Source: a virus. Taken from it: a DNA stretch of 61,416 nucleotides. Both the position numbers and the translations under genes were made by a program. The notes beneath the pieces were generated by a model. The model searched no databases, was not told where the DNA came from, and worked only from the letters and a program-made list of their open reading frames with translations. Shown piece after piece: positions 2,850-50,981 of the stretch (positions are counted from its first letter, which is position 1; each line of letters begins with the position of its first letter). The stretch spans positions 1-61,416 of the IMG/VR virus record IMGVR_UViG_3300047509_000054; one strand, given 5' to 3'.

Positions 2850-2868
2850 CAGAGGACTATTTTATGGG

Positions 2869-2897
2869 TTGGCATTACTTCATGCGCTCGCTAAAGT
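2869..2897 (+). promoter_or_regulatory. Sigma70-like promoter for RNA copy A
   Basis: TTGGCA (2869-2874), a 17-nt spacer and TAAAGT (2892-2897), rightward. The predicted start at about 2904 falls within a few bases of the first conserved hairpin (2901-2935). Copy B has a promoter in the equivalent place. Confidence 0.6.
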
Positions 2898-2900
2898 GGC

Positions 2901-3300
2901 GAGGCCGGCGAGGGCGTCAACCCTCCTCCGGCCTCTGATCAAGTCCGGTAGCCGCCGGGACGAGATCAACTTCTCCCCAATCTAGGGTCGCAGGCGGCTT
3001 AGGTCAATCCGAGAGGGTTGGCACCGCAGGCATTCGGGATCTATCGACGGTCGGTCTGCGGCGTAAATGGTGGGAGACGGGCCTGGCAAACCACCATCGC
3101 CGGCCGAACGGTCCGGGCGAGCCAGACGGGGAAACCTACGAAGTGCGGGCCGGTGGTCTAAGCGTGGGCTCGTCTCAAGGGGCAAGTCTTAAAGTCGCTT
3201 GGAGGCCATAGGCGCCACTCGAACGCGCGCAACAAAATTGCGTGCCGACGGGTAGGCGGCCTGTGGCCATCACGCGGGTCTGAACTCAGGGGCAAGTCGT
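2901..3300 (+). ncRNA. Candidate large structured RNA, copy A
   Basis: A ~400-nt non-coding element whose diverged second copy is 10120-10509 on the other strand. Pairings seen here: 2901-2908 with 2928-2935 (inner 2910-2914 with 2921-2925); 2950-2956 with 2993-2999; 3006-3010 with 3015-3019 closed by a GAGA tetraloop; 3067-3073 with 3091-3097; 3124-3130 with 3169-3175; 3204-3216 with 3255-3268; 3225-3232 with 3238-3245. Several of these differ between copies on both arms with pairing kept. The element follows its own promoter and ends about 20 bases before a small same-strand gene, so it may be a separate RNA or a long leader. It does not match RNase P, tmRNA or group I intron cores that I can recognise. 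Confidence 0.65.
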
Positions 3301-3319
3301 TAGAAAGAGAAGATTAGAG

Positions 3320-3562
3320 ATGAGCAGACGACATCGAAGCATCAGAATCGTCGGTGGCCTGAACTGTCCTCATTGTGGAAAAACGATGCAACGCTTCGAG
3401 CACAGCAAATCGTGGGTTCCTCGTCCTGGTCGATATTATTTTCGCTGGTGGGACCGTTGCTTTCGGTGCCAGCATCTCCAGCACTATGAGAGCGCGAAAG
3501 TTTCTGTGCTGACGGAAGCCGATATGGACATACTTGACTTCGCACGCTCGCAAGGGTTGTAG
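3320..3562 (+). CDS. Small zinc-ribbon protein downstream of RNA copy A
   Basis: 80 aa with two CxxC pairs (CPHC at about 18-21 and CFRC at about 50-53) around a Trp/Tyr/Arg-rich stretch, the layout of a small zinc ribbon. It is the only rightward gene in this leftward region, lies about 20 bp after the structured RNA and is more AT-rich than its neighbours. Start chosen at ATG 3320 after a purine-rich AGAG stretch. It could bind nucleic acid, perhaps the RNA next to it, but that is a guess. Confidence 0.65.
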   Translation: MSRRHRSIRIVGGLNCPHCGKTMQRFEHSKSWVPRPGRYYFRWWDRCFRCQHLQHYESAKVSVLTEADMDILDFARSQGL

Positions 3563-3563
3563 G

Positions 3564-4949
3564 TTACTCAGCCGCAATCTCCGCGCGCCCGACCGCCTCG
3601 TCCACGCTCGCCTCGAATGTGTGCCCGCCAGTGTGCTTCAGCTTGACGGACGGCAGCATGAATATCTCGCCGCCTAGCGCCTTCCATCGGTGGCAGAACG
3701 CGAAGTCCTCGGCCTTGCGTCGCTGATTGACGATCATCGGGGCGAACACGTCGTGCTCGGTCTGTCCCGTTTCCGACATGAACACGAGGTCTGGATATCC
3801 CGCCGCCATCCGCTCGGCGCAGGATCGAGAAATCATCGCGAAGGCCATGCCGATCTCGGAGACCAGCCAAAGCTCCGTTTCGCCTTCCACGATGACGACG
3901 TGCGAGCGTTCGAGGTTGAAGGCGAAGTTGATGGGGTACTGCTTCTTAGGGCCGGCTGCGGCGACGAAGTCTCGTTTGAGCATGGCGAGGCGGATCACGT
4001 CGATGGCTGACCAGCCCATGTCGGCGTCGATCGCCATCATGTGGGTGTGCGGCGATCTGAGGAACGCGCCGAGGAGTTTCGCCCGCGCGAGGCTGATATC
4101 GGCGCAGTAGGGCAACTCGCCGAAATCGACCCGCCCGCCGCACTGCCTGATCATGTTCGTGGTGTTCTCGAACGAGCGCATGAAGTGGCGGTCGTAGGTG
4201 CCGTCTCCGGTCGGCGTCGCGATGTAGATCGACATGCCGTCGAGGCGGGGCCGGATGACGTTGCCGCCGTGGCGCTCGGCGAGGTCCATGATGGCGTCGC
4301 AGGCGACCCGCTTCTCCTCGGCCATCCATCCCCGGAACCGCTTCTCGTCGCCGTCCCAGAAGCGCCCGATATGCGCGGTCGTGGCGTCCGACTTGCCCTG
4401 CCGGAAGGCGTGCATGTGGGCGACGGTCACGTCCATCCGAACCGTCCAGCAGTTCGTCGCGTTGCCGAGTTGCTCCCAGATGTCATCGACGAAGAAGTGC
4501 TTGAAGCCGGGCGGGTAGATGCCGCCGAGGGTTCTGAGGAGGTCGCCGGACCAGACGATTGCGCCGTGGATGCGCTTGGGGGCCTGCCAGTCGTCGTTTG
4601 AGGAGACGACGTTCCATCCGGCGACGCTCTCGATGAGTTTGGTGTCCCAATTCGGCGTCTTCGGCACATGGTCGTCGCAGAGGCCGCCGATCCAGTCGAG
4701 GTTCTGGCATGCCGCCTGCCATGCCCCGTTCATCGCCTCGACGACGCTGCCGGCCTCGATGGTGAGGAATGACCAGTTGTCCGGCATCTCGTCGGCAAGG
4801 GCGAGATAGTGCGCCTTTTCCTCTTCCCACTCGTCGAAGTTGACGACGACCCGCCCCGGCGTGCTCATGCCTGTCGCCTTCGCGGCGGCGAAGAAGCGCT
4901 TGAGCGAGGGGATGCGGCGCTTCGAGGGGAGGAGCCAAAGTCCGTTCAT
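3564..4949 (-). CDS. Two-domain glycosyltransferase-like protein
   Basis: 461 aa. Residues 1-230 resemble a GT-A glycosyltransferase fold with an acidic metal-binding type motif (GLCDDHV at about 88-94). The C-terminal half has a second one (MMAIDADMGW near 316-325). Two acidic triads suggest a bifunctional enzyme or two tandem transferase domains. The gene lies between the two RNA copies, and its start overlaps the stop of the ejection-like gene. Substrate unknown; it may act on the host envelope, virion proteins or DNA, alongside the sugar operon at 23.6-30 kb. Confidence 0.65.
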   Translation of the reverse strand: MNGLWLLPSKRRIPSLKRFFAAAKATGMSTPGRVVVNFDEWEEEKAHYLALADEMPDNWSFLTIEAGSVVEAMNGAWQAACQNLDWIGGLCDDHVPKTPNWDTKLIESVAGWNVVSSNDDWQAPKRIHGAIVWSGDLLRTLGGIYPPGFKHFFVDDIWEQLGNATNCWTVRMDVTVAHMHAFRQGKSDATTAHIGRFWDGDEKRFRGWMAEEKRVACDAIMDLAERHGGNVIRPRLDGMSIYIATPTGDGTYDRHFMRSFENTTNMIRQCGGRVDFGELPYCADISLARAKLLGAFLRSPHTHMMAIDADMGWSAIDVIRLAMLKRDFVAAAGPKKQYPINFAFNLERSHVVIVEGETELWLVSEIGMAFAMISRSCAERMAAGYPDLVFMSETGQTEHDVFAPMIVNQRRKAEDFAFCHRWKALGGEIFMLPSVKLKHTGGHTFEASVDEAVGRAEIAAE

Positions 4950-7900: not shown

Positions 7901-8035
7901 TCCCGGTTCGAGCGCTGCGTATTCCTCCGCCGTCTTCACCTCGCGCGTCGTTTTGAGAGGCTTGTCCGGGTCGAGCGCGGGTGTCCCCGTCGCCGGCAGC
8001 TTCGGCAAATCGGGACGGTCGATATCGGTCGCCAT
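4949..8035 (-). CDS. Large internal virion (ejection-type) protein
   Basis: 1028 aa. The N-terminus carries two copies of a ~22-residue motif (YVDPEGKTRQKP and YVDPSGKKRQKP) and a related third (FYVDAGDGRRLKPG). Residues ~150-205 are a Gly/Ala/Val-rich hydrophobic stretch able to insert in membranes; the rest is mostly long helices with an Ala/Lys/Glu-rich coiled-coil look; the C-terminus is Pro-rich. Size, composition and pairing with the next large protein fit podoviral ejection proteins. No lysozyme or transglycosylase catalytic motif was seen. Starts at ATG 8035 in a TAATG overlap. Confidence 0.6.
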   Translation of the reverse strand: MATDIDRPDLPKLPATGTPALDPDKPLKTTREVKTAEEYAALEPGFKYVDPEGKTRQKPHAVSDAASYAAVPEGETYVDPSGKKRQKPIFDGIDLTAQTLYDMAVNDKERRNVLVRSYGDDAVKQDEFGGFYVDAGDGRRLKPGHGNIAKRGAAFVASEAVPVAGAVAGAVGGGAVGSLVPGGGTIVGGIAGAGGGAAIGQGFNDIILGLTGVYDRSIGEEAGTLGTAAAGGAVGEGAGRLVVGGARLAKDLVVQGKAALPGRFNAFLGTDPDKLRLSSSLADKGVLTPPTWAEESPHLRNIVEVFDPAFRTQKPLVKSATAYYEDEAKKLLATQGMTHEGSVVEPSAAPSTLKAGEAVKAKIASEVAEKDAALRNALDRAKLTASQGGAANVAEHEANLAALKTAEAENRKTAQAAIDAGFTDIKADVDAAMKATKAGQGGGDLWEMVGNKLMSIRRAIGVNATRMYDRADEMAGTHLPNTGDLVEYAQTFLDQLPKTFQDKYPNIVKKLRDLAGEVDAEGKVIRPPENPTFGQLRRLRTDFRSNVDYHDLTPDVRDGVYKHFAGKVDGVLHDAGAVPELKAAAEMLDEADAYYKENIRAFKDKNIQAVVNGLESGMPADANILYNTVVKEGRTELTNKVRDLVGPNLWAGVKAADVQEMLDAAKTLIPGEIDGRTFSRQVLDRTRSGMLESVHGKETADKLLRQAQNIEMLGGRLPVTVRPGDTLTTVIQRANEAADAIKLVAKQDPLGTFAREMKAIDHEGKIAKGKLAAERRADPLAFLYKPTTGADEAANHILGSEDLIIAAAKKFGENSNEFKLLRQLWTQRILEGTLDPGRRLASVSPEIQQMMMPGVSLDAMQTLAKEMDFLMGTRAGANTAKSIAAVAKVEHPWSSITGKFVGQVAKAVPGSDVAGRAILGGYYKVITNLQANPAFQRWLITGLNGTGPQRDAAREAFRKLMSDVGGVTGAGIGASVGSGGSSQEPHRPRPRQTTGTRKIASQPSPAPPPLIGPPTAASQLGINEGSPF

Positions 8036-9642
8036 TACTGGACCTCGGGATCGCTAGACCACGGCGTTGCGCTTGGCGCAGAACGCGCACCGGCACCGCC
8101 AGCCGCGCTTGGCGACCCTTCGCCGGCATCGCGCTCGCCGCGCGGACGCCATTGCCCTTTCAACTGCAACAGCGTGTCTTGCTGCATTTTCTCGTACAGT
8201 TTTCGCACCTCTTCGAGAGAGCGCATGGTATTAGCCGTGGTGTCGCCCATGTTGAGCCCGCCGATGATCTCGGTGATCTTCTCCGCGTCGGCATGGAGCG
8301 GCCGGGACGACGCATCGGTCAGCAGGCGCGACGCCATCAACTGCAGATAGTCGATATTGCGCATGAACTGCACGCGCTCGGTCGTGTCGCTGCCGAGGAC
8401 GTTGCCGATGCGTTCGCCCAGTCTGGTGACCTTGCCGCCGACGCCGGCAGCGCCGACCAGATTATCGAGCACGGCCGTCGTCTCGCCGATCTTGTCGAGG
8501 CTGTCGTCGAACTGATCGACGCGCGTCTGCAACTTCTCCTGCGCATTGCCGGTGAGGAGACTCTTGCCGTATGCGTTGGCAATCGCCCGGTCCTTCTCGG
8601 TAGCCGTCGCCTTGCGCCCTGTCTTGGCCTCGATCTCGGCGATTTCCTGTTGAATGGCGTCGGCGCGTATCGCCGCGATCGAACCGCTTGACGCACCCGA
8701 TCGCGCCGTCGCTTTGACCGCGCCGGTCGGCGTGTAGGGCTGTCCGGCCAGATCCGTCGTCGCGCCGGTCTTGTCGTTCATCCGATACTGCTTCGCTGGC
8801 ACCGTCCGGCCATCGGCCCCAACGCGCTCCGGATCGGTGAAAATCTCCCACTTGCCGGTGTTTCCAGTGGTGCTCTCCGGCGTCCCCGACAGCACGCGAT
8901 TCATCTTGTTTATCCGCTCCTCCGGCGTCATCGGATTGGGCGTTTTCGCGCGGTCGGCCTGCTCCTTGTCGATCGCCAAGATACCAGCCTGTTTGGTGTG
9001 CAATTCTAGGAGTTTCAGACTGATCTCGGGCAACTTGCCGGCTTGAATCCGCATGTCGTTCTCGTACTTCGCGATGCCGTCAAGCCCCTGCGTCACGAGG
9101 ATTTGGTTCGCGGTGTGATTCTGGAAAACCGCCGTGAGATTCCTGACCTCGGCGTAGGTTCCGGCCCGATCGGTGTCGATCTTGGAGAGCGCCGCGCGAT
9201 AGGCGTCCAACTCGAAATGCGCGAGTTTCACCGCGTTTTCGGTGTTGATCTTCCACTCGTCGAACGCGGTCTGCGCGGCAGCGGCGTCCTTGCGCTTGTA
9301 GGCGTCGAGCACGCCAGCCGCCGCGTTGAGCGAGGCTGTGAGAGGCCGCCGCGTCAGCAAGCCTCCGAGCGACGCAAGCACGCCCGCCGACGAGCCGAAC
9401 GCCTCAAGCGGGCTGGTCTGAGGCGGCGCGGTCCACTTTTCGAGCTTGGGCGGCGTCAGGACGTTGGGATCGAGCTTCGCTTCCTCGGCGTCGATCTTCG
9501 CGGCCTTCTCCTTCGCGCGCTCGGTCGCGGCCTTCATCTCCACGTCCGACTCTTGGATGTACTTCTCGTTGGCGAGGAGGTTCGAGCGCAGCGCCGCGCC
9601 GATGCCGCCGCGTTTGGGATCGATCGCGTCGAGGAAACTCAT
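8035..9642 (-). CDS. Internal virion protein
   Basis: 535 aa, predominantly helical with coiled-coil stretches (about 30-60, 120-260 and 330-490) and a short Ala/Gly/Leu-rich segment near 78-110. It is translationally coupled to the 1028-aa protein and has no enzymatic motif. Its place between neck and tail genes suggests a second ejection or inner-core protein. Confidence 0.6.
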   Translation of the reverse strand: MSFLDAIDPKRGGIGAALRSNLLANEKYIQESDVEMKAATERAKEKAAKIDAEEAKLDPNVLTPPKLEKWTAPPQTSPLEAFGSSAGVLASLGGLLTRRPLTASLNAAAGVLDAYKRKDAAAAQTAFDEWKINTENAVKLAHFELDAYRAALSKIDTDRAGTYAEVRNLTAVFQNHTANQILVTQGLDGIAKYENDMRIQAGKLPEISLKLLELHTKQAGILAIDKEQADRAKTPNPMTPEERINKMNRVLSGTPESTTGNTGKWEIFTDPERVGADGRTVPAKQYRMNDKTGATTDLAGQPYTPTGAVKATARSGASSGSIAAIRADAIQQEIAEIEAKTGRKATATEKDRAIANAYGKSLLTGNAQEKLQTRVDQFDDSLDKIGETTAVLDNLVGAAGVGGKVTRLGERIGNVLGSDTTERVQFMRNIDYLQLMASRLLTDASSRPLHADAEKITEIIGGLNMGDTTANTMRSLEEVRKLYEKMQQDTLLQLKGQWRPRGERDAGEGSPSAAGGAGARSAPSATPWSSDPEVQ

Positions 9643-10073
9643 TTGTCAAACTCCGACCTACGATAGCTTACACTAGTTATTGGGCCGGGTTCCAAAACCG
9701 CGATTTTAGGTTCGTACAGCGTCTTCAGCGCTAAATCATAATCGCGCTCGCTCTTCCGAAGAAGACTGTCCCGAGTTGTGGATTCTCCGCCACCCGATCG
9801 TCTCATCGACGCGGTTCTATAAAGTGTCATTGCATAGATAAACGATATTCCACCAGTAATAAATGGCGAGAAACCCAGATGTAAAGGCGACATTATCGTT
9901 GCTATAAACAACAGACAACTGGAATATATGCAGAATAGCCAGAAAATACCCACTGATTCATCACAGTCTTTTTCCCACTCATGCAAAATTGAAAACGTAA
10001 AAGTGGAAAGAAGACCAAACTCGGATATCAGTGTCATAACATATGCTGTCACATCACCTATATTGTCTCTCAT
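9639..10073 (-). CDS. AT-rich membrane protein downstream of RNA copy B
   Basis: 144 aa with hydrophobic segments at about 10-30, 42-62 and 67-85 and a hydrophilic C-terminus. It is visibly AT-richer than the genes around it, which suggests recent acquisition. It is the first gene read from RNA copy B and has the AGGACTAG-type ribosome-binding motif just before ATG 10073. Its stop overlaps the next ATG (ATGA). Function unknown; superinfection exclusion or host takeover are possible roles for such a moron gene. Confidence 0.65.
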   Translation of the reverse strand: MRDNIGDVTAYVMTLISEFGLLSTFTFSILHEWEKDCDESVGIFWLFCIYSSCLLFIATIMSPLHLGFSPFITGGISFIYAMTLYRTASMRRSGGGESTTRDSLLRKSERDYDLALKTLYEPKIAVLEPGPITSVSYRRSEFDK

Positions 10074-10119
10074 CTAACTAGTCCTTGTGTTGTCGTGTTA
10101 ACATCTAAACCTACCAGAC

Positions 10120-10509
10120 TGTCCCTGAGTTCAGACCCTCGTGATGGCCATAGGTCGCCTACCCGTCGGCGCGCAATTCGGCGCGCGTTCGAGTGGCGCC
10201 TATGGCCTCCAAGCGACTTTAAGACTGTCCCTTGAGACGAGCCCACGCTTAGACCACCGGCTCGCATTTCGTAGGTTTCCCCGTCTGACGCGCCCGAGCC
10301 GTTCGGCCGGCGATGGTGGTTTGCCAGGCCCATCTCCCACCATTGCGCCGCAGACCGACCGTCGATAAATCCCGAATGCCTGCGACGGTGCCAATCCCGG
10401 AGGATTGACCGATGCAGCCTGTGTACCTAAATTCGGGGGAAACGCTCCTGTCCCGGCTGCATTCCGGACTTGAGCGGGGCGACGGGAGTTGATAGCTCCT
10501 GTCGCCCGC
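10120..10509 (-). ncRNA. Candidate large structured RNA, copy B
   Basis: Leftward second copy of the element at 2901-3300. Nearly identical to copy A in the part equivalent to 3028-3180 (about ten differences by eye) and strongly diverged at the 5' end, where pairing is nevertheless kept: 10501-10509 with 10474-10483, and 10455-10462 with 10412-10419. The small hairpin at 10393-10410 has a C(UCCG)G tetraloop where copy A has GAGA. A GCGCGC stem with a different loop corresponds to copy A 3225-3245. It runs into the membrane-protein gene ending at 9639. Confidence 0.65.
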
Positions 10510-10513
10510 CTTC

Positions 10514-10543
10514 ATTCTAGAGCCATTTTCGTCGTCGATGCAA
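10514..10543 (-). promoter_or_regulatory. Sigma70-like promoter for RNA copy B
   Basis: Read leftward: TTGCAT (10543-10538), an 18-nt spacer and TAGAAT (10519-10514). The first conserved hairpin begins about 5 bases beyond the -10 box, the same arrangement as copy A. Confidence 0.6.
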
Positions 10544-10554
10544 GCGCGCCGCAT

Positions 10555-11871
10555 TCAAGCCGCCGATACCTTGATCGTCTGTCCCCCGCCGCCCGCGAGG
10601 CCCGCCGCGAACTTCGCCAGCGCGTCCGAGAGCGAAGCGTCCTGCGCGAGCGAGTCCTTCAGGATAGACTCGTAGAGCGCTGTCGAGAGGCCGGTTTCCT
10701 GTATGCCCGTCGAGAGGAGGGTGCTCGCGAGGCTAGCGCCCTGCGACTGCTCGTTGATGCCCTGCGCGAGAAGGCTCTGCGCCAGCGTGCCGCGCTGCGC
10801 CGCGATCTGGTTGTCGACGTTGGCGAGATCCTGCTGCTCCGCCGACGATCCCGACATGCCGCGCGAGGCGTACTGGCTGCGGATGGTCGCCTTGGCGGAT
10901 GCGGCGGCTGTCGTGAGTTGCTGTTCGAGGCCGGGCGGCAGTTTCCCGGCTGCGGCGTCGTTGGCGATGGTGGTGCCCTGCGTCGTGAGGTTCCCAGCCG
11001 TGCTGCCGACCGTTGCCGCGTTCGGGCCGATGAGCGAGTTTCCTTGGCTGGCGAGTTTGTCCGCTGCGGAACTGAGATTGCCGGCGGCGGCGGAAGCGCC
11101 GGGGATGGTCGGCTGGTTGAGCGCCTCGAAGCCGAGAATGCCGGCGCCGAGAACAGCGCCCGGATTGTTGACGAGGCCGCCGCCGATCGTGCCGGCCGGG
11201 TCGTTGAGGAATTTGGTGAAACTCGAATCGGGCGACGGTTTGATGCCGGATGCTCCGAAGGCATTTTCTCCGGCAGCGATAGCGGATGGTCGCGCTCCTC
11301 CTGCGGTGTCGGCGTTGAAAGCATCGGTCGCCGTTTTGTCGAGTCCCGCTGGTGCCGTCGCATCAGGGCCGGAGAAGGGCACCGAGGCGGGCGCGGCGAC
11401 CGGGCCGGCAGCGGAAGCGATGCCGACAGGGGCTGCACCGGGAGGAGCCACGGCAGGCGCTACGGGGGCGATGGCTTGCCCCACCGGCGAGGCAAAGGCG
11501 GAAGCGGGGTCAATGGCAGGGGGCGCTATTGCACCGGCGGCGCCACCAGCCTGCGGAGCGACGCCCAACGCAGTCGCGATATCCTGCCCGCCGATCGAAG
11601 CCTCGGTGAGCGCGGCGGGGATAGCAGTGCTGGCCGCATCCGTCGCAACTGGTGCGACATCCGCCGCACCGCTGGCACCCGCTGCGGCAGCATCGGCAGC
11701 CGTCGATGACAGTTGGCCCGCCGTACCGGCGGCATCCGCCGCAGCGGGCGCCGTTCCACCGAAGAAGTCGCTGACTGCGGTTCCAGCCTGATCGAGCACC
11801 GCGCCGAGGTCGCAGACGATCGAGTGCGGGATGTCGCAGAGCCAGATCTCAGCGTTGAAGACGTGCGTCAT
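10555..11871 (-). CDS. Ala/Pro-rich virion protein
   Basis: 438 aa, starting at ATG 11871 in an ATGA overlap with the upstream gene. Residues ~30-200 are almost entirely Ala, Pro, Gly, Thr and Val; the C-terminal ~150 residues are helical with Gln/Ser/Ala repeats. Composition and location suggest a structural or ejected protein. No motif recognised. Its stop lies just before the promoter of RNA copy B. Confidence 0.6.
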   Translation of the reverse strand: MTHVFNAEIWLCDIPHSIVCDLGAVLDQAGTAVSDFFGGTAPAAADAAGTAGQLSSTAADAAAAGASGAADVAPVATDAASTAIPAALTEASIGGQDIATALGVAPQAGGAAGAIAPPAIDPASAFASPVGQAIAPVAPAVAPPGAAPVGIASAAGPVAAPASVPFSGPDATAPAGLDKTATDAFNADTAGGARPSAIAAGENAFGASGIKPSPDSSFTKFLNDPAGTIGGGLVNNPGAVLGAGILGFEALNQPTIPGASAAAGNLSSAADKLASQGNSLIGPNAATVGSTAGNLTTQGTTIANDAAAGKLPPGLEQQLTTAAASAKATIRSQYASRGMSGSSAEQQDLANVDNQIAAQRGTLAQSLLAQGINEQSQGASLASTLLSTGIQETGLSTALYESILKDSLAQDASLSDALAKFAAGLAGGGGQTIKVSAA

Positions 11872-12296
11872 AGAGAAAACTCCATCCGAAACGACGGTGT
11901 GCTCGCGGTGAACCCGAGAGCGGTAGCGAGCGGCGTTGCATCGGTCCCGTTCGTCGGGCGCAGCGTCACCGTGCCGACGCCGTTCACCTCCATCCAGAAA
12001 AGTACCTGCCGGAAGATGCGCAGCAGTTCGCCGGCATGGCCCGCCGTGTCCGAGAACCAGAACGGGAACAACCCCTCCATGACGATCTGGTCGGGAAGCC
12101 GCTGCTGCTTGACGCCGACGACGACGGTGTGCTCGCCGCGCGCAAAGCACCAGTTCGGATTCCTGAGACGGTCCAGCACCCACGTCGCCCATGCGCCGCG
12201 TCCGAGTTTTCGCTTGTAGCACCGCTCGGCGAGGTCGAGCGCCCATTCGATGTCGGCCTCGGTGAGGCGGCGCATTTCATGGGCGATGGTGTCCAT
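11868..12296 (-). CDS. GNAT-like fold protein of the virion region
   Basis: 142 aa. An N-terminal helical segment is followed by strands and a central stretch (GRGAWATWVLDRL) reminiscent of acetyltransferase-like proteins found among phage structural genes. A clear acetyl-CoA P-loop is not visible, so enzyme activity is uncertain. Coupled to its downstream neighbour by a 4-bp overlap. Confidence 0.45.
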   Translation of the reverse strand: MDTIAHEMRRLTEADIEWALDLAERCYKRKLGRGAWATWVLDRLRNPNWCFARGEHTVVVGVKQQRLPDQIVMEGLFPFWFSDTAGHAGELLRIFRQVLFWMEVNGVGTVTLRPTNGTDATPLATALGFTASTPSFRMEFSL

Positions 12297-25757: not shown

Positions 25758-25928
25758 TTCGCTAATCCTCTCTGAGTTGCCGGCTCGCACCCCTTAGCGT
25801 TAGCCGCGCCGACTGTCAGAAGATCGGCGGGAGATTCACGGTTTGCCCCTTGCATAATGCGGGGGAGGGCTGCTTGGTTCGCTGGGACGGCCGGCGCGTC
25901 CCCCAGGACGAATCTCCTATGGCAACTG
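25758..25928. promoter_or_regulatory. 171-bp gap inside the sugar operon
   Basis: GC-rich spacing between the TPP-enzyme beta gene and the DegT gene, otherwise rare in this operon. A frame crosses it but looks non-coding. It may hold an internal promoter; no clear boxes or hairpin seen. Confidence 0.3.
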
Positions 25929-26456
25929 CTACGCATAGAATTGCGTATATTCGACGAGTAAGGTTGAGCCCTCGTAGTCTAGGGCCTTGCGATATGCGGG
26001 GACAATCAACTCGTGGACGGCGAGGCGCTCGACGCGGATCGTCTTGAACATCATCTCAAACGCCCCGCTTGGATCGCCGAGGTGCTGACATCCAGCGTCC
26101 AGCGGGATCGGCGTGGCGACCGCTGTGCGAATGATGACGCGGGGCTTGTAGCCGCCATTTGAGAAGATCGGAATCTTGTCCAGTTGCTGCACCATCTGCG
26201 GCACGGCTTCGAGGAGAAACTGGATGCGTGGATAGACGCTGACCGGCAGTCCGCCAGCGATGGCAATGCCCGTCGCCATCCCGCATTGGAGATTCTCGGC
26301 GACGGGCATTTCGAGCAACTTCTCGGGGGGCAGGTGGCGGAACGTTTGGCTCATCGCCGTTCCGTCCGCCACAACGGCCTGCCCGATCACGATGGCTAGC
26401 GGATGCTCGCACACGAGACTCATCGCGTCGCAGATGGCTTTCGCGTAGGCGTTCAT
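25929..26456 (-). CDS. Thiamine-diphosphate enzyme, beta (pyrimidine-binding) subunit
   Basis: 175 aa, matching the first domain of E1-beta/transketolase pyrimidine-binding subunits. PVAEN carries the catalytic Glu that activates the cofactor, followed by the Gly-rich GMATGIAIAGG. It stops before the C-terminal transketolase domain that ordinary E1-beta proteins have. Start at ATG 26456 overlaps the preceding TGA as ATGA. No E2 or E3 partner is encoded, so a pyruvate-dehydrogenase complex is unlikely; C2 transfer to a keto sugar is inferred. Confidence 0.7.
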   Translation of the reverse strand: MNAYAKAICDAMSLVCEHPLAIVIGQAVVADGTAMSQTFRHLPPEKLLEMPVAENLQCGMATGIAIAGGLPVSVYPRIQFLLEAVPQMVQQLDKIPIFSNGGYKPRVIIRTAVATPIPLDAGCQHLGDPSGAFEMMFKTIRVERLAVHELIVPAYRKALDYEGSTLLVEYTQFYA

Positions 26457-28518: not shown

Positions 28519-28701
28519 TCAAGTGTAGTTTCCAGGGTCGGCGCCTGCCGGCCAGGTAAGCGCGTGCTCCTTCGCGAGGGCGCGCAACTCGTTCATGGGT
28601 ATGCTCACCCGGATCTCGATCAACTCGTCATCGCCCTTCTCGGCGGCCTGGATGATGATGCTGTAGTAGGCGCTCAATACCCTGCTTTCGATGGAGGTCA
28701 T
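28519..28701 (-). CDS. Small hypothetical protein of the sugar operon
   Basis: 60 aa (MTSIESRVLSAYYSIIIQ start), helical N-terminus then EIRVSIPMNELRALAKE. Overlaps the radical SAM gene's stop by 4 bp and precedes the glycosyltransferase. Not recognised. Confidence 0.55.
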   Translation of the reverse strand: MTSIESRVLSAYYSIIIQAAEKGDDELIEIRVSIPMNELRALAKEHALTWPAGADPGNYT

Positions 28702-30173
28702 GCCGTCTCCAGCAGCTTGCGGCGGATCGTCTTCGCCGTCATCGCCTTGATGTGCTCGACCGTCGCGGCGCCGAACTTCTCGCGGATCATCGAGAGGTAG
28801 CGCGGGTTTCGGTAGTAGGTCTGGAACGCGGCGTCCCGGAATCGCAGCACCTCCTCCGCGCGGACGTGCAGCGTGTCGAGCGGGTGCGTCTCGTAGGCGT
28901 GTTGAGAAAATCCTAAATAGCTATCGGGCAGCCGCGCGCCGGCCTTCACCGCTTCCGCGTAAAGAGCCGATCCTGGATACGCCTGCGCAGAATAGAAGTT
29001 CGCGAAACTCGTATTGAGGCCCATTGCCAGATCGAGCGTCTCCTGCATGCTGACGAGGTCATCGTCTGGCAGGCCGAAAATGTAGTTCGCAATGACGTTG
29101 ATACCGGCACTTTCGATAGATCGAACCACCGCCACAATATCGTCGCTCTTGAGCGCCTTATCCGCTCCGTCTCTGACATGCTTGCTCCCCGATTCGATGC
29201 CGAGCGCGAGCCAGCGGATGCCGGCGCGGCGGAACATGCCGAGCGTGTCGGGCTTCACTGTATCGATTCTCGCGTAGGCCCACGCATTGCCACCGCGCTC
29301 GCCCCATCCGGATTCGATCAGACTTTGGCAGATCGCGGTGTAATGGCTCGGCTTGAGCACAAACATCTCGTCGACGATCTTGATCGTCTGGACGCCGTAC
29401 TTCCGTTCCAGCATGAGAATTTCGGCGACGACGTTCTCAGGATTTCTGGTACGATACTTGTTGTCTCCGAAGGGCGCAGAGATACAGCAAAATTTGCATC
29501 GCCAGCTACAATTTAGGCTCGTGTAGATCGAAGCGTAGGGCTTCCGCTTCGACAGATCGCCGAAGCACTGCCATGGGTGCGCGGCGTAGGCGTGCATCGG
29601 CAGCAAGTCCCACACGTCGCCGTGCAGATCCTTCATGTTGGGGAAGGCGGCTCGCGGCTCTTGGAGGATGCGACCAGAGACGAGAGAATCGCGCCACACC
29701 AATCCAGGAACCGGACCTCTGCCACGCAACAACCCTACGATGGTCTCGAATCCCTCGCCGTTGCAAGCGTAGTCGATCGGCTCGTCGCGCAGCGTCTTCT
29801 CGGGCAGCGCCGCGACGTAGCCGCCGACCATGATGACTGGGATATCGAAGCCATGAACCTCGTCGTCAAGCATGGCGGCGATCTCGTGCGCGCCGTGCAT
29901 GGTTTGGGCGCTCGAACTCGGTTGATGGCCGTGTGCCACAATGCAGATCAGGCGCGGCCTGTGGAACAACAGACCTATATTCATACAGACATCGGCGGCG
30001 CTCATACCCTCGGCTTCTGCGTCCATGATGGCGACGGAGAAACCCAGATCCCTCACATACCCAGCGATGAGGCGGACCCAAAGATTCGGTTCACACGCCA
30101 CCAACTCGTCGCCGAGTCCGCTATAGATCGCGTCAGACGCGCCGGGGTTTATGAGGAGGAGGTCGAGCGTCAT
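28698..30173 (-). CDS. B12-binding-domain radical SAM enzyme
   Basis: 491 aa. Residues ~1-160 form a cobalamin-binding Rossmann-like domain; where DxHxxG would give the lower-ligand His the sequence has DAEAEG (51-56), so cobalamin, if bound, is probably base-off without His. The radical SAM domain follows with the 4Fe-4S cysteines Cys222, Cys226, Cys229 (CSWRCKFC), GGNAWAYARID, and GIESGSKHVRDG. Class B methyltransferases and related enzymes share this plan. In a sugar operon it could C-methylate or rearrange the sugar. Needs host cobalamin or none. Confidence 0.75.
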   Translation of the reverse strand: MTLDLLLINPGASDAIYSGLGDELVACEPNLWVRLIAGYVRDLGFSVAIMDAEAEGMSAADVCMNIGLLFHRPRLICIVAHGHQPSSSAQTMHGAHEIAAMLDDEVHGFDIPVIMVGGYVAALPEKTLRDEPIDYACNGEGFETIVGLLRGRGPVPGLVWRDSLVSGRILQEPRAAFPNMKDLHGDVWDLLPMHAYAAHPWQCFGDLSKRKPYASIYTSLNCSWRCKFCCISAPFGDNKYRTRNPENVVAEILMLERKYGVQTIKIVDEMFVLKPSHYTAICQSLIESGWGERGGNAWAYARIDTVKPDTLGMFRRAGIRWLALGIESGSKHVRDGADKALKSDDIVAVVRSIESAGINVIANYIFGLPDDDLVSMQETLDLAMGLNTSFANFYSAQAYPGSALYAEAVKAGARLPDSYLGFSQHAYETHPLDTLHVRAEEVLRFRDAAFQTYYRNPRYLSMIREKFGAATVEHIKAMTAKTIRRKLLETA

Positions 30174-30688
30174 ATCGGCCTCGGCTTATTTCTAGGACCG
30201 GATGTGTACCCTGTCCCGCCGCCAGTTTCGGTGACCGTCAGTTTTGCGGTCGGGTCGCTGACAAGGGCGGCGACCTCGCGCGGCCCGAACACGTTCCAGT
30301 TTCCGAACTCCTCGTGAAGCTCGGCGGCGAGAGCGTCGGCCTTGAAATCTTTTCTGTCTCCGCAGATCGAAGAGAGGACGTTCTTGGCGGTGTTTCTCAC
30401 TCCATTTATCGAGTGGGTTAGTTTCAGCAACTTGTCCTGCTCCGCGCCGCCGGCCCGCGCCTTCGCCTCATTTTCCCAGATGTATCGATTACACAACATC
30501 AGCACGAGCATCGCATGGATTGAGCGCGCATCGATCTCCGGTCGCAAAATGTCGAGATCGTGCAGGATCAACTCCATCTCAGCGCGGTACTCAGCGGCGT
30601 GCTCGGGGATGAAGACGGCCTTCAACTGCACGATCGAGAGCCGGTCGACGAGTTCGGCGAAGGTGGGGAGGTAGCTGCGCTCGGTCAT
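30170..30688 (-). CDS. Conserved hypothetical protein of the sugar operon
   Basis: 172 aa. All-helical N-terminal part (FAELVDRLSIVQLKAVFI at about 10-27), Cys/Trp-containing middle, and a Gly/Pro-rich tail ending GPRNKPRPI. Overlaps the radical SAM gene by 4 bp, suggesting a linked function. Family not named with confidence. Confidence 0.55.
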   Translation of the reverse strand: MTERSYLPTFAELVDRLSIVQLKAVFIPEHAAEYRAEMELILHDLDILRPEIDARSIHAMLVLMLCNRYIWENEAKARAGGAEQDKLLKLTHSINGVRNTAKNVLSSICGDRKDFKADALAAELHEEFGNWNVFGPREVAALVSDPTAKLTVTETGGGTGYTSGPRNKPRPI

Positions 30689-31014
30689 CGAAGGGCCTCG
30701 TCTATCATCGCCTGATATGCCTTGGTCGGCTGCCCATCGATCAGCGTCAGGGGGAGAGACCCTATCGTGGGAGTGTGGATGCCATACGTCATTGCGCCCG
30801 CTTCCTTCATTGGCCCGCTCGGTTCTCTCATCGCCATGATGGCGGCGCGGGCGTTCATATCGTCCACGATGTCGTGCGGCTCATCCCGTGCCGTCAGACC
30901 CTCTCGCACGACGGCATCGGTGTAGCCATCCTGAATGAAGAACGTGCCGTTGACGTGCGCCTCCAACTGGTAGCGCATCATCTCGAACGAGACCTTGTCC
31001 ACCATCTCGCTCAT
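30685..31014 (-). CDS. Small protein with duplicated C-terminal module
   Basis: 109 aa. The C-terminal ~45 residues (REPSGPMKEAGAMTYGIHTP, GSLPLTLIDGQPTKAYQAMI) recur almost unchanged in the gene at 31493-31702, and the DNA repeats directly as well (about 30690-30830 versus 31498-31640). The N-terminal part differs. Function unknown. Confidence 0.55.
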   Translation of the reverse strand: MSEMVDKVSFEMMRYQLEAHVNGTFFIQDGYTDAVVREGLTARDEPHDIVDDMNARAAIMAMREPSGPMKEAGAMTYGIHTPTIGSLPLTLIDGQPTKAYQAMIDEALR

Positions 31015-31496
31015 CGCTGCCTCGGCGGGTTGATCAGGCGGATCGGCATCGGCGTCCTCGGAGCCTGCGCGACGGCGACGGGATCAGGCGAGTGCTGGAC
31101 GCCGGGCGAGTACGATCCGGCGAGCGCGCGTCGTCCGAGCATCGCGGCGTTGGGGATCATCGGGTTCTTGCGCCGCCCGCCGCCGAAGAAACCATCGGCC
31201 ATCTTCTGGAGTTGTGGCGCAAGCGGCGGCGCGGAAGTCTCTCCCTCGCGCACGTTCGATTTCAGGTCCGTCATCCCGTGGTCCTGCATGACGATCTCGG
31301 CGGTCTGGTCGATCGCCTTGACGCTATTGCTCATGCCGACGACGGCGGGCGCGCGGTTCGAGGAGAAGTCCATCCCGCGCACCTTCTCGCGCTTGGAGCA
31401 CGCGGGGCACGGCGGGTCGGGCGCGTCCTCGGATGGCAGGACGCGGGTGTACTTGTGGCCGCAGGGGATGCAGCGGAGCGTGACCTTGACCTTCAT
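31011..31496 (-). CDS. Zinc-ribbon virion-region protein
   Basis: 161 aa. CIPCGHKYTR and CPAC (about 9-12 and 30-33) form a small zinc ribbon at the N-terminus; the rest is Pro/Arg-rich and probably disordered. Coupled by ATGA overlaps on both sides. Role unknown. Confidence 0.6.
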   Translation of the reverse strand: MKVKVTLRCIPCGHKYTRVLPSEDAPDPPCPACSKREKVRGMDFSSNRAPAVVGMSNSVKAIDQTAEIVMQDHGMTDLKSNVREGETSAPPLAPQLQKMADGFFGGGRRKNPMIPNAAMLGRRALAGSYSPGVQHSPDPVAVAQAPRTPMPIRLINPPRQR

Positions 31497-31702
31497 TCAA
31501 GCGCCTTATCGATCATCGCCTGATATGCCTTCGTCGGTTGGCCGTCGATCAGCGTCAGGGGGAGAGAGCCTATCGCGGGAGTGTGAATGCCATACGTCAT
31601 TGCGCCCGCTTCCTTCATTGGCCCGCTCGGCTCGCGAACACATTCGATAACGCGACGGGCAAGTCGGCGCGCCTGTTCGGTACTGCATCGCTTGCCGAAC
31701 AT
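31493..31702 (-). CDS. Small paralogue of the 30685-31014 protein
   Basis: 69 aa starting at ATG 31702 inside the upstream membrane-protein gene. After a short Arg-rich lead (ARRLARRVIECV) it carries the same ~45-residue module as the 30685 gene, indicating a recent partial duplication. Confidence 0.5.
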   Translation of the reverse strand: MFGKRCSTEQARRLARRVIECVREPSGPMKEAGAMTYGIHTPAIGSLPLTLIDGQPTKAYQAMIDKALE

Positions 31703-32689: not shown

Positions 32690-34545
32690 GCCGGAGATTC
32701 CGGCTCCATCTCGGCCAGTTCTTCCTGACGTTTGAAAAACCTCTCTACAATTCTGTTTGCGACGGCGGTCATCGGATGGACATCGCCGCGCTCGACGGCA
32801 TCGACCGCCTCATATGTCATGCCCTCGGCGATCATGCGAGGCCGAATCCATTGGAGCCAAGTGGAATTGGCGTGTCCCGCCGCAAATACGCGGTCGTCGT
32901 GGCCCCTGCCCGGCGCACCGATGTCATTGCCCTCTTGTGTGACGATCAGCATCTCTTCGAGCAGCAGTGCCGACTTAATCGCCAAGAGACTCATGTGATA
33001 ATGATCGCGAAGCTGGTTCATCATCTGCCACTTCGTCTTGAAATTCATATCTGAATTCCACATGAATCCGGGGCCTGCGGAGTCAGGTCTGGTTTGCATG
33101 TACCATCTTGCGTTACTGAGGAAGTCGTCGAACTTCCGCTGCTCTACCTGCTTCTGGAACATCTCGGCTCGGAGACGATCACGCAACCCGTCGAACTCGA
33201 CCATCACGGCGCGGCCGGGTCCGGTCAATTCGAGGTTCACCATGCAGTCCTTGTAGGCTCCCGCGAGGTGAGCGAGGATCCACGCGAACTGCCGCGTGTC
33301 GATGGCGTCGGAGGCGTACTCGGCGCACTGGACGAGGCGGTCGGCATAGCAGCGCCACACGCTGATCGCGCCCTTGTCCTTCCAGTCGTTTCTGCCATAA
33401 GCCGGATCGGCGCCGATGACGTAGCTCGCGCCATCGACCGGCTCGTGCCACACCCGAAGCTCGACCTCGTCGATGCGATCATAATCGTCGATCTTCTCGG
33501 TCTGCACCGCGAAGAAGTCGTTCCCGATGTAGTAGCGGTACGCCTTGAACGTGAACTCCGGCTCGTTGGCGGGATCGTAGGCGTATTCGAGATCGCGCTG
33601 CACGACCCTCGTCATAAAGAACGAGAACCCGGTCAGAACCCAAGCGTCTTCTTCAATCCACGGTTGATTCTGCTGGAGCGTCCCTTCGTCGGCGCCTTCC
33701 TTCGAATCCTTCCACCGACGCCACGCCACCTGCTCGATAGTTATGGTGACACCATGGCGCTCCTTGACGAGGTTGATGCGCTCGCGCTCCTCTGAGTCGA
33801 TCTTCGCGGCGCCGAACTTCTTGAAGCGCTCGTCGTGCTTCGGGATCTGGTTCTGCGGCTTCGCCCACCAGCCGATGAAGAAGCGGCGCTTGGTAGCGCT
33901 GTCCTTTCCGGCGTCGATCCACATGTCGCGGAAAAAATTCATCCCCTTCGCGGTCGATTCCTCGACGACCAAGCGGTCAGGATGCTCGACCGAGAGGGAC
34001 TCCTTGAAACTTTCGTACCCCGCCGGGTTCCCGTAGGCTCCGAGTTCCATGGCGTGCGCGACGACATAGCCGACGCCCTCTCCCCATGAGATCGATTTTT
34101 TCCCGGTTCCGGCAACGAGGATGTCAAGGCGACTGCCGTTCGAGTATTGGATGCCGCCAGAGTGGCTGCGCACGATCTTGAACTTTCCCAAATAGCCCTT
34201 CGGAAACGAGCGGACCATTCGGGTGATGACGGCGCGGCAGGCATTGGCGTTCTTCGGCGTGTCGGTGACGAGAGCGCCCGTGAGACCGGGGTGTACGGCC
34301 ATCCAAAACACATCGACGAGCGCGAGCGAGATCGTCGAGATGCCGAGTTGCCGTGACTTCAGGCAAAGGAACTCGCGCTGCCCGGCATCAAGGCCGCTCG
34401 CGAGTTCATAGAGGAATGTCTCTTGGCTCGCCCACATCTCGAACGGTGCGCCGCGATCGTCGAGCGACGCGACCTCTTTCGAATCGATGCGAATGTTCGA
34501 GATAAAATTCTCGAACAGTGGCATCCATTTGTTGGGGTCCGACAT
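32662..34545 (-). CDS. Terminase large subunit
   Basis: 627 aa. ATPase: Walker-A-like KSRQLGIST (63-71), an acidic Walker-B-type AHAMELGAY near 163-171, and the coupling motif LVVEESTAKG (192-201). Nuclease: YVIGADPAYGR with its Asp, and GHDDRVFA near the end. It drives DNA packaging at the portal. Start ATG 34545 shares a base with the preceding stop. No ordinary small terminase is adjacent. Confidence 0.85.
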   Translation of the reverse strand: MSDPNKWMPLFENFISNIRIDSKEVASLDDRGAPFEMWASQETFLYELASGLDAGQREFLCLKSRQLGISTISLALVDVFWMAVHPGLTGALVTDTPKNANACRAVITRMVRSFPKGYLGKFKIVRSHSGGIQYSNGSRLDILVAGTGKKSISWGEGVGYVVAHAMELGAYGNPAGYESFKESLSVEHPDRLVVEESTAKGMNFFRDMWIDAGKDSATKRRFFIGWWAKPQNQIPKHDERFKKFGAAKIDSEERERINLVKERHGVTITIEQVAWRRWKDSKEGADEGTLQQNQPWIEEDAWVLTGFSFFMTRVVQRDLEYAYDPANEPEFTFKAYRYYIGNDFFAVQTEKIDDYDRIDEVELRVWHEPVDGASYVIGADPAYGRNDWKDKGAISVWRCYADRLVQCAEYASDAIDTRQFAWILAHLAGAYKDCMVNLELTGPGRAVMVEFDGLRDRLRAEMFQKQVEQRKFDDFLSNARWYMQTRPDSAGPGFMWNSDMNFKTKWQMMNQLRDHYHMSLLAIKSALLLEEMLIVTQEGNDIGAPGRGHDDRVFAAGHANSTWLQWIRPRMIAEGMTYEAVDAVERGDVHPMTAVANRIVERFFKRQEELAEMEPESPAWMIQRGLA

Positions 34546-35192
34546 CAGGGCACCCCGGTGTTGAACAGCTTGGCGAAGTGTGAGAGCGGGATCGTCACCG
34601 GACCCTGCGGCCTCATGCCCGGCTGGGCAGGATCGAACTTGAACGTGTGGTCAGCGAGAATCGCCCTCGCGCTCTTGACCTTCGCCGCATCCTTCTCGTA
34701 GGCGTCGAGCTTGCCGTTGCAGCCCGACAGCATACCCGTCAGCGCGTTCTCCATGACGTTCGGCTTGCCCTTCTTTGCCGAGAAGCGGCCGACAAGTTTC
34801 GCAAGCCGGTCGCGCACTTTCCGCACTGGTGCCGCCTGCTGCTCTATCGCCGCCGCGCGCTCGGCAAGAACCTGATCCATCAACTTCACGAGATCGAAGT
34901 GCAGAGCGTCGCCGACCTTCGCGAGCGCGGCATCAAGCGCGACCTGTAGCACTTGGATCGTCTCGGCCAGAGAATTATCTGGTGACTTCTCACTGATATC
35001 GCCTGTCGCGTCGTACTTCGCCCGGCGCTCGGGATCGACGAGAATGTCGTGCGCGTGCTTCAGCGCCGCGAAGACCTTGGCGTCGCCGCCGTTGATGTCG
35101 GGATGCGCGGCCTTTGCTTTACTCCGGTACGACTTCCTGATCTGCGCCGCCGTCGCATCGCGGGAAACGCCGAGAACATCATAGAGAGTCAT
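34545..35192 (-). CDS. J-domain (DnaJ-like) protein
   Basis: 215 aa. A complete J domain at 1-65: LYDVLGVSRDATAAQIRKSY, then the HPD triad at 30-32 that stimulates Hsp70, then DPERRAKYD. Residues ~70-160 are a long helical region. Directly coupled to terminase, so it may recruit host DnaK for packaging or assembly, or take the place of a small terminase. The first is inference from family, the second only from position. Confidence 0.8.
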   Translation of the reverse strand: MTLYDVLGVSRDATAAQIRKSYRSKAKAAHPDINGGDAKVFAALKHAHDILVDPERRAKYDATGDISEKSPDNSLAETIQVLQVALDAALAKVGDALHFDLVKLMDQVLAERAAAIEQQAAPVRKVRDRLAKLVGRFSAKKGKPNVMENALTGMLSGCNGKLDAYEKDAAKVKSARAILADHTFKFDPAQPGMRPQGPVTIPLSHFAKLFNTGVP

Positions 35193-35466: not shown

Positions 35467-35503
35467 GTATCGTGTCCCTCGATCTAGCTAATCCCGGTCA
35501 GAG

Positions 35504-35536
35504 GAAATCCCCAAGAGCCTCTCGGGGACTTCCGTT
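35504..35536. terminator. Hairpin in the 100-bp gap upstream of the terminase operon
   Basis: An inverted repeat, about 10 bp with one mismatch (GAAATCCCC against GGGGACTTC), around an AAGAGCCTCT loop. It may end the upstream leftward transcript. No T-run is obvious. Confidence 0.4.
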
Positions 35537-35566
35537 CACATGGTCATCACGCTACTCCGACCATGT

Positions 35567-36322
35567 TTATGCGGTCGTGCCAGCGGCGAAGGTGCCGAAC
35601 GCGCCGGTGATCGTCACTGGTATCACCTGATCGGTCAGGGTGACGCTGAACGGCGCGATGACGCCGGCCGGATCGGTCCAGGTGATCGTGACGCTGCCGC
35701 TCGCAGGCGTGGTGACGTTGCACGACTGGAAATCGGCGGACAGCCGCGCGTCGGCAACGGCGGGGTTGTCGACGGTCAGCGTGCCGGTCGGCCCCTTGAC
35801 GGCGGCGCCGGTCGAATCGGTGAAGATGATTGGTGCGGTAACCGCCGTCGAGGCGGGCAGAGTCTGTACGGCCAAGATGATGTCTCCTGTCTTTGGGTTG
35901 ATGAAGTAAGCGCCCGCAAAGCGGCCTTTGACGGCCTTTCCCGGCTCCGGCTTCTCTGTGAGAACGTTTGAAATGTGCTTCAGCGTATGGTTGTGCAGTT
36001 TGAACTCTTCGAGAATCTCCCCCAGCACCCTCACCTCGGCCGATAGAACCTGAACCTCGGTCGGCTCGTGCGAACGGTGCCACGTCATCTCTTCTTCTCC
36101 AGGTTGAGTCGCGGATTGTAGCACTTTGCTTGTCGGCAGACCCGCGTTCGTCGCAAGATAGTTGCGCTCGCGCTGCGGCAGGCACTTCAGCATCGCCCAA
36201 CGGCACCACGTCGAGATCGTGTTCCCCGACGCACGAGCCGCCCGCTCGATCGACGACTTCTCCGCATCGACCAGCGTCACCGTCACATACGCCTTGCGCG
36301 GCGTCCGACCGGGGCGCGGCAT
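35567..36322 (-). CDS. RHH-like domain fused to an Ig-like protein, internal start likely
   Basis: 251 aa. Residues ~1-60 look like a ribbon-helix-helix or short HTH DNA-binding region (PRKAYVTVTLVDAEKSSIER). A linker precedes residues ~80-251, which include a helical segment and a C-terminal Ig-like beta domain (VTITWTDPAGVIAPFSVTL). An in-frame ATG at 36088 has GGAG about 10 nt upstream, so a 173-aa protein lacking the DNA-binding part is probably also made. Start ATG 36322 overlaps the previous TGA. Confidence 0.5.
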   Translation of the reverse strand: MPRPGRTPRKAYVTVTLVDAEKSSIERAARASGNTISTWCRWAMLKCLPQRERNYLATNAGLPTSKVLQSATQPGEEEMTWHRSHEPTEVQVLSAEVRVLGEILEEFKLHNHTLKHISNVLTEKPEPGKAVKGRFAGAYFINPKTGDIILAVQTLPASTAVTAPIIFTDSTGAAVKGPTGTLTVDNPAVADARLSADFQSCNVTTPASGSVTITWTDPAGVIAPFSVTLTDQVIPVTITGAFGTFAAGTTA

Positions 36323-44897: not shown

Positions 44898-45004
44898 CGC
44901 GCCCTGCTGACGCGCCGGTAGGCGACGATGGCGACGGCTGCGATCAGCACACCGACCGAGAACAGAGCCAACCCAAGCAGCAGGAGTTGCAGCATGTCGC
45001 TCAT
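44894..45004 (-). CDS. Small membrane protein
   Basis: 36 aa, one transmembrane segment (LLLGLALFSVGVLIAAVAIV) with a basic tail. Coupled by ATGA overlaps to the DpdA-like gene and the resolvase. Unknown. Confidence 0.45.
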   Translation of the reverse strand: MSDMLQLLLLGLALFSVGVLIAAVAIVAYRRVSRAR

Positions 45005-45741
45005 GCCGCCGCTCCGAAGTCAAAATGATCCTGCACCGGCATGGTTGCGATGCGGTGCGCGAAGCGAACGGCATGGCGCGGATCGTTCGGACTCTCCTTC
45101 CGCCTGCGAGCTGCGGCCGACCACGCCATGCTATCGGCGCTGTAAAGCATGTCGCGGATCATCCCGCACGCAAGCGCCGTCGTCTTGACCCCGAAGGCGT
45201 GCAGGCGAAGGTCCGGTCGTGCTGCCTTGATCGCGCTCAAGACGGCGCGAATTGCGGCGGGATCGCCGTTGCGCTTGCAGATGCTGCCGACGCCGGTCCA
45301 CATGCCCGACTTGAGCCGGTCACCGTACTGCCGGATATGATCGACGTAATCAGCTGGCGCATAGCCTTGCAGAACGGGGAGGATGTAGACGCCGCTAGTA
45401 TTGCAGGCGAGCAGCGCATCGTATCGCTCAATGGTGAGGCGCTGGTGATTGGCGATCGTGAGGCCAGTCTTCTCCAGCATCATCGTCTCGCACATATAGT
45501 CCTGTGCCACGGCGGCGAGGAGATTGCCGCAGCGCCGCCAACGCCTGATCTCGCACGCATAGGCGCCAACCGTCGTCGTGTATCGGCCGTGCGCCGCAAT
45601 CTCGGTGAAGGCGCCACTGTCCATAATCCAGTCACCAACCGGGAAGTTCCGGCGGCGACCTAGTAGCCGCTTCACCGAGACGAACGCCGCGCCAACCTTG
45701 TCAGCGTCAGAAGGATGATGCATGCCAGTGAAGAATTTCAC
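45001..45741 (-). CDS. DpdA-like tRNA-guanine-transglycosylase family protein (DNA 7-deazaguanine insertion)
   Basis: 246 aa. TGT-family marks: WIMDSGAF with Asp41, AQDYM with Asp81, PVLQGY (122-127), GVGSIC (150-155), HAFGVK (181-186) and SADSMAWS with Asp203. This order is that of phage DpdA proteins, which exchange guanine in DNA for a 7-deazaguanine (preQ0-type) base and so block restriction. No queuosine-pathway genes (FolE, QueD, QueE, QueC) are seen, so the base would have to come from the host. Assignment is strong for the family, inferred for the reaction. Confidence 0.7.
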   Translation of the reverse strand: MKFFTGMHHPSDADKVGAAFVSVKRLLGRRRNFPVGDWIMDSGAFTEIAAHGRYTTTVGAYACEIRRWRRCGNLLAAVAQDYMCETMMLEKTGLTIANHQRLTIERYDALLACNTSGVYILPVLQGYAPADYVDHIRQYGDRLKSGMWTGVGSICKRNGDPAAIRAVLSAIKAARPDLRLHAFGVKTTALACGMIRDMLYSADSMAWSAAARRRKESPNDPRHAVRFAHRIATMPVQDHFDFGAAA

Positions 45742-48548: not shown

Positions 48549-48845
48549 ATGGACATCGCAGAGGCGCAGGCGGTCCTACAGGCCGAAGCCGACAAACTAA
48601 CCGATGCGTTGCGGCGCAAGGGGTACGTGGACGCTCACTGCGAGATTTGGATCAACCGGAGTGGCACTGGCGAGGCCACGATCTACGTGGCTACGTGGCC
48701 GATCGTACCCGGCAGCAACCCTTATCTGTCGTCGCTGATCCGTGACGCTCGGGCACAGATCATGGAGTTGCCGTTTTCGGATGCGATGGCCTACGCCGAC
48801 GAGTTCAATGGTCCGCTATATCTGATGAGCGAACAGGTACAATGA
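48549..48845 (+). CDS. Hypothetical early protein
   Basis: 98 aa, start ATG 48549. Helix (AEAQAVLQAEADKLTDAL) then a beta part (CEIWINRSGTGEATIYVATW). Last gene before the 250-bp leader of the recombination genes. Confidence 0.5.
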   Translation: MDIAEAQAVLQAEADKLTDALRRKGYVDAHCEIWINRSGTGEATIYVATWPIVPGSNPYLSSLIRDARAQIMELPFSDAMAYADEFNGPLYLMSEQVQ

Positions 48846-50832: not shown

Positions 50833-50981
50833 CCGAAAGTAACGAGTTCGGCGACTGGTGGTCCGATGCGATGAAGGAGCGAGCCGTGGCTGATTACTTG
50901 CTTGCTATAGGGCCACTGGCGTTTCTTGTCGCCGTCATTATTGGCGTGGTGTTTTACATCGTGGACGGGGGATCGCAATGA
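50829..50981 (+). CDS. Small membrane protein
   Basis: 50 aa, one transmembrane helix (LAIGPLAFLVAVIIGVVFYI) behind an acidic N-terminus. Coupled by overlaps. Unknown. Confidence 0.45.
   Translation: MTESNEFGDWWSDAMKERAVADYLLAIGPLAFLVAVIIGVVFYIVDGGSQ

Follow-up and report, generated by a model that had tools for sequence, protein, structure and literature searches.

What kind of element are the two copies of a non-coding sequence of about 400 nt that lie amid the late structural genes of this phage genome? The window, by which we mean the whole stretch of 61,416 nt analyzed here, is IMG/VR virus record IMGVR_UViG_3300047509_000054, positions 1 to 61,416, from a bacterial virus represented by environmental DNA only. 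Because its first and last 127 bp (1-127 and 61290-61416) are an identical direct terminal repeat, as expected of overlapping genome ends, the window is probably a complete phage genome of ~61.3 kb. The two copies are as follows.

2901-3298, plus strand: RNA copy A (~398 nt)
10511-10117, minus strand: RNA copy B (~395 nt)

A preliminary description had proposed two copies at these positions in opposite orientation, and blastn recovered both, with 87% identity across 360 nt (E = 1.5e-118). It had also held that the copies diverge most at the 5' end with their stems kept, and this too held up: alignment columns 1 to 108 were 59.8% identical and those after them 91.7%, and the helices it named were present. 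Beyond the 5' end the copies are ~92% identical and differ by non-coding indels. Since the alignment contains one-base indels and stop codons occur in all three forward frames, the stretch is not coding, and a coding reading was set aside. The fold z-score against dinucleotide shuffles was -3.15 for RNA A and -4.08 for RNA B; 96 control windows from the same genome had a mean of 0.08 (standard deviation, 1.45), with 4 of the 96 reaching -3. Control windows 35500-35910 (minus strand), 25900-26310 (plus strand), and 48700-49110 (both strands) scored about -3.5 to -4.8, and the first of these carries a strong hairpin close to its 3' end.

The predicted helices and repeats of the two copies are listed below in approximate 5'-to-3' order.

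2901-2935, plus strand: P1 hairpin of RNA A, which opens the RNA; GAGGCCGG/CCGGCCTC at 2901-2908/2928-2935, plus GAGGG/CCCTC
10507-10477, minus strand: P1 hairpin of RNA B; core GGGCGAC/GTCGCCC at 10507-10501/10483-10477, plus GGAG/CTCC
2936-2968, plus strand: P2 hairpin of RNA A; UGAUC/GAUCA, then inner stem GUCC/GGAC
10476-10443, minus strand: P2 hairpin of RNA B; CGCUC/GAGCG
2950-2956 with 2993-2999, plus strand: pseudoknot of RNA A; AGCCGCC/GGCGGCT
10461-10455 with 10419-10413, minus strand: pseudoknot of RNA B; TGCAGCC/GGCTGCA
3025-3060, plus strand: P5 hairpin of RNA A; 22-nt loop bearing the motif CGGGAUNUAUCNACG at 3035-3049
10384-10349, minus strand: P5 hairpin of RNA B
3074-3085/3165-3176, plus strand: P6', a long-range 12-bp helix of RNA A; GAGACGGGCCUG/UGGGCUCGUCUC, enclosing P7 and the CGAAC element
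10336-10325/10245-10234, minus strand: P6' helix of RNA B
3100-3105/3148-3153, plus strand: P7 of RNA A; CCGGCC/GGCCGG
10310-10305/10262-10257, minus strand: P7 of RNA B
3179-3188 and 3289-3298, plus strand: direct repeat GGGGCAAGTC bounding P10 in RNA A
3204-3268, plus strand: P10, a long hairpin toward the 3' end of RNA A
10231-10223 and 10125-10117, minus strand: direct repeat GGGACAGTC, twice in RNA B

The RNA also contains P4 (CAAUCC/GGRUUG, in which a GC bulge is conserved) and P9, which lies between P6'/P7 and P10 in 5'-to-3' order, and it ends with UCUGAACUCAGGG after P10. The AGCCGCC/GGCGGCT helix is a pseudoknot because 2950-2956 falls in the loop of the covarying P2 hairpin, which pairs ~40 nt downstream. 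A second pseudoknot would result if P6' and P9 both form, and the middle region also has alternative nested foldings. A P8 pairing (219-225/256-262), first chosen on one double change, was rejected, as the third member of the family (see below) favors the overlapping P7. The motif flanking P10 reads CUCA(A)GGGGCAAGUC twice in RNA A and CUCA(A)GGGACAGUC twice in RNA B, so both motif copies changed identically, i.e., in concert. A third GGGACAGTC/ACTCGGGACAGTC occurs at 9772-9764 (minus strand), within the ORF behind RNA B.

Between A and B, the P1 sequence is 47% identical with the hairpin retained, P2 has two compensatory double changes, and the pseudoknot has two within 7 bp. The preliminary description had argued from such helices, with both arms changed and pairing kept. 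The helices are present as named, but their covariation is borderline on two copies (P ~0.05). When substitutions were placed at random in these variable columns, 5.4% of trials gave a couple of local helices that each had two compensatory pairs, and wider covariation counts were matched in 28 to 59 of 300 shuffles; P1, which changes wholesale, was left out of both. Thus, the covariation between A and B is by itself suggestive and not decisive, and the case made from it is right yet weaker than first appeared.

Each copy is joined to an ORF on the same strand, as follows.

2850-3563, plus strand: insertion unit A, RNA A and the zinc-ribbon ORF, antisense to the neighboring genes
3320-3562, plus strand: zinc-ribbon ORF of 80 aa directly 3' of RNA A; CPHC...CFRC, basic N terminus
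9643-10554, minus strand: insertion unit B, RNA B and the 144-aa ORF
9639-10073, minus strand: 144-aa ORF directly 3' of RNA B; hydrophobic stretches, unrelated to the zinc-ribbon ORF
10078-10104, minus strand: eight-codon mini-ORF MLTRQHKD, at the site where the zinc-ribbon ORF begins after RNA A

In the related phage record G013, the homologs of the genes flanking A (3564-4949 and 2460-2849) overlap by 17 nt; the second flanking gene is just 24% identical to its G013 counterpart (E = 1e-5). The homologs of the genes flanking B (10555-12246 and 8035-9642) abut within 0 to 15 nt or overlap in 12 of 12 related phages covering the site. Because the flanking genes abut in relatives, both units are insertions in the manner of moron-like cassettes, each an extra unit between genes that are adjacent in relatives. 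The preliminary description had missed this insertion, the zinc-ribbon ORF, and the pseudoknot nature of the AGCCGCC helix. A sigma-70-like promoter match (TTGGCA-17-TAAAGT, 2869-2897, plus strand) lies just before RNA A but is weak, given 6 such matches in 13 kb where 2.2 were expected; no terminator turned up, and nothing was flagged as a promoter before the L080 RNA described below.

Elsewhere, the window encodes HNH_3 homing-type endonucleases at 50978-51472 (plus strand) and 55064-55693 (minus strand), the second with NUMOD4. It also carries a queuine tRNA-ribosyltransferase-like gene (45001-45741, minus strand), possibly for deazaguanine DNA modification, genes for a radical SAM/B12-binding protein (28698-30173, minus strand) and a DnaJ-domain protein (34545-35192, minus strand), and a 141-nt segment duplicated at 90% identity (30685-30825 and 31493-31633).

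The 80-aa zinc-ribbon protein has homologs at L080:11669-11887 (46%), the sole one in the related loci fetched, and at L098:1142-1396 (56%). Common to the three are CPxxC...CxRC, an RFEH/RYSH stretch, WxPxPG, QxYExAK, and a basic N terminus. Pfam gave sub-threshold zinc-ribbon matches only, and the AlphaFold model was of low confidence (mean pLDDT, 69). The top Foldseek matches of this model were ribosomal proteins, none significant (E of 0.5 or worse), so the resemblance is a lead only. A search of phages, plasmids, and 659 bacterial genomes gave no convincing match to the ORF, and a search with the 144-aa ORF behind RNA B gave no homolog. It is possible that the mini-ORF is a truncated zinc-ribbon remnant, judging from a likeness to MSRRHRS noted by eye. 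Two other phages have a primase-type gene close to the zinc-ribbon gene (L098 1142-1396 and 1771-2193; L080 10128-11887).

We collected 38 related loci by a scan for the major capsid protein, in none of which did blastn find a copy of the RNA. A covariance model of P4 to P8 (R2) matched L080, the locus from G013, whose capsid protein is 72% identical, at 11268-11407 (15.6 bits; E = 0.09 for the 310 kb searched, 0.006 for the locus alone); a model of P6, P8, and P9 (R1) found no member besides A and B. The third member spans L080:11168-11600, in a 536-nt gap directly upstream of the 72-aa zinc-ribbon ORF. The RNA and ORF of G013 are located elsewhere than units A and B, after the gene for a primase that has Zn_Ribbon_Prim and Toprim domains.

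In the L080 RNA, the P5 loop motif CGGGAUNUAUCNACG is intact on a different 9-bp stem, AUUUCAGUG/CACUGAAAU, the chance of such a stem flanking the loop being ~0.012 to 0.018, and the CCGRCCGAAC element is intact as well. In a structural alignment to A and B that was made by hand and leans toward the structure, P7 keeps 6 of 6 pairs with one double change (G-C to A-U), and P6', a helix that by itself is not above chance, keeps 11 of 12 with five; P5 and P2b have four double changes each with pairing retained. P1/P2 hairpins with changed pairs precede P5, and the 3' domain is unlike that of A and B. The covariation is strengthened by this third member, in which predicted pairs have changed and pairing is retained. 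In the 1.3 Mb compared, no sequence other than A, B, and L080 has the P5-P7 motif pair, even when up to 3 mismatches are allowed.

These results bear on whether there is a functional RNA at all. That A and B are just two copies of GC-rich non-coding DNA would fit the borderline covariation and the control windows that reach a fold z-score of -3, but in the third member the loop motif is conserved, the stems have changed, and the same gene follows, and we regard this explanation as very improbable. The RNA is a very rare, previously undescribed family with three copies in two phages.

Large structured phage RNAs known to us are few (GOLLD and ROOL), and their functions are open. Rfam 15 at the gathering threshold, run on the whole window, gave no match, and at E ≤ 10 there was nothing meaningful for A, B, or the L080 RNA; the models covered RNase P, tmRNA, group I and II introns, GOLLD, ROOL, and OLE. 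The earlier placement of the RNA outside known families, GOLLD and ROOL included, is thus borne out by direct comparison. RNase P RNA and tmRNA were rejected for want of a covariance-model or ARAGORN match, and membership in GOLLD, ROOL, or OLE for want of a covariance-model match. No tRNA genes were found in the window, hence no tRNA island. Searched by blastn in phages and plasmids, A and B gave nothing and the L080 RNA gave 48-nt chance matches only. Three core DNA pattern searches of IMG/VR returned zero matches and another returned seven, all in short, unrelated sequence. Of five core-pattern matches in GTDB, three were examined and rejected: two are one efflux-type coding gene, and the third shares the same 21 nt only. 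The P5-P7 pattern in IMG/VR returned nothing but L080, already known, and L101, where the match falls by chance within a coding gene.

Two similar copies inserted between abutting genes might also suggest a mobile catalytic RNA, an unrecognized self-splicing or selfish intron-like element copying itself within the genome, and the direct repeats flanking P10 and the homing-type HNH endonucleases elsewhere in the genome are in keeping with this. However, the group I and II models, including their catalytic cores, were unmatched even at E = 10, no catalytic motif was recognized, and the copies lie between, not inside, complete coding sequences that abut in relatives, so that there are no exons to join. 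We consider such an element improbable.

Could the RNA instead serve replication, as a structured primer or origin transcript? The G013 RNA follows a primase gene and the L098 zinc-ribbon gene is near a DnaG-type zinc-finger gene, but a clear GC-skew turn is absent at A and B, the copies in the window are among late structural genes, and an inverted second copy is unexpected for one origin. This is the explanation to which we give least credence, and we judge it highly improbable.

The position of the RNA relative to its neighbor raises another alternative, namely, a very large 5' leader that regulates the downstream ORF in cis, in the manner of a riboswitch or attenuator, with the ORF exchanged behind copy B as happens among regulatory RNAs. 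In all three members an ORF on the same strand begins no more than ~90 nt from the RNA, nothing resembling a terminator separates the two, and the RNA is kept while the downstream ORF differs between A and B. This ORF-upstream position argues against a stand-alone role, and the leader predicts it too. On the other hand, a conserved pairing of the RNA 3' end with the ribosome-binding site was not found by eye, and at ~400 nt it would be long by the standards of bacterial regulatory leaders. Moreover, the retention of the RNA in B without the zinc-ribbon ORF argues for a role beyond regulating that ORF. We treat a leader as the main alternative, possible but doubtful.

We tentatively prefer a stand-alone structured phage RNA that probably works with the zinc-ribbon protein, although we hold this at somewhat less than even confidence. 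The structure signal, the two copies, the insertion at both sites, and the distant third member with the same zinc-ribbon gene are matters of observation. Since RNA A and the L080 RNA both lie directly before the same zinc-ribbon gene, the RNA and the protein gene are probably carried along as one cassette; the L098 homolog has no RNA upstream, so the pairing is not obligatory. Under this preferred reading, each cassette consists of a ~400-nt RNA and a small accessory ORF on the same strand, placed between phage genes that otherwise abut. The RNA, contiguous with the ORF, probably has a promoter of its own. The typical ORF product, a basic zinc-ribbon protein, would most likely bind the RNA to form a ribonucleoprotein, a layout resembling that of OLE and oapA. 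Copy B, which has no zinc-ribbon ORF, could use the protein of copy A in trans, and any benefit might lie in host takeover or counter-defense.

OLE RNA is a large, structured RNA of ~600 nt from Bacillota whose gene colocalizes with that of its protein partner, OapA, a membrane protein of 21 kDa (PMC12054373). RNA A and the L080 RNA are likewise directly upstream of a conserved protein gene, but this layout fails at RNA B, which has no zinc-ribbon ORF, and at L098, where the protein occurs without the RNA; further, the RNA here is phage borne, ~400 nt long, and without an Rfam OLE match. GOLLD has a variable 5' and a conserved 3' region, ROOL is a large phage RNA with pseudoknots, and both are often near tRNA islands (PMC12286853). 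RNA A and RNA B similarly combine a variable 5' end with a conserved remainder, and they share with ROOL the character of a large pseudoknotted phage RNA. However, GOLLD is often >800 nt and near tRNA islands, whereas our window has neither tRNA genes nor a match to either family, and here a protein gene accompanies the RNA. Structured RNAs next to an ORF are also found among HEARO and IscB omega-RNAs, which are associated with mobile elements, but the ORF adjoining RNA A encodes a zinc ribbon of 80 aa instead of an HNH/RuvC nuclease, and Rfam gave no match.

More broadly, and with a little more reserve, we propose a class of phage ribonucleoprotein cassette not described before, in which a large pseudoknotted RNA, its core conserved and its 5' domain evolving fast, is paired with a dedicated zinc-ribbon protein; such a cassette may move between phages and act in trans. 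The candidate protein partner and the clean insertion boundaries make the system directly amenable to tests of binding, processing, and deletion. The finding suggests that large structured RNAs can ride as compact accessory cassettes, duplicated within one phage.
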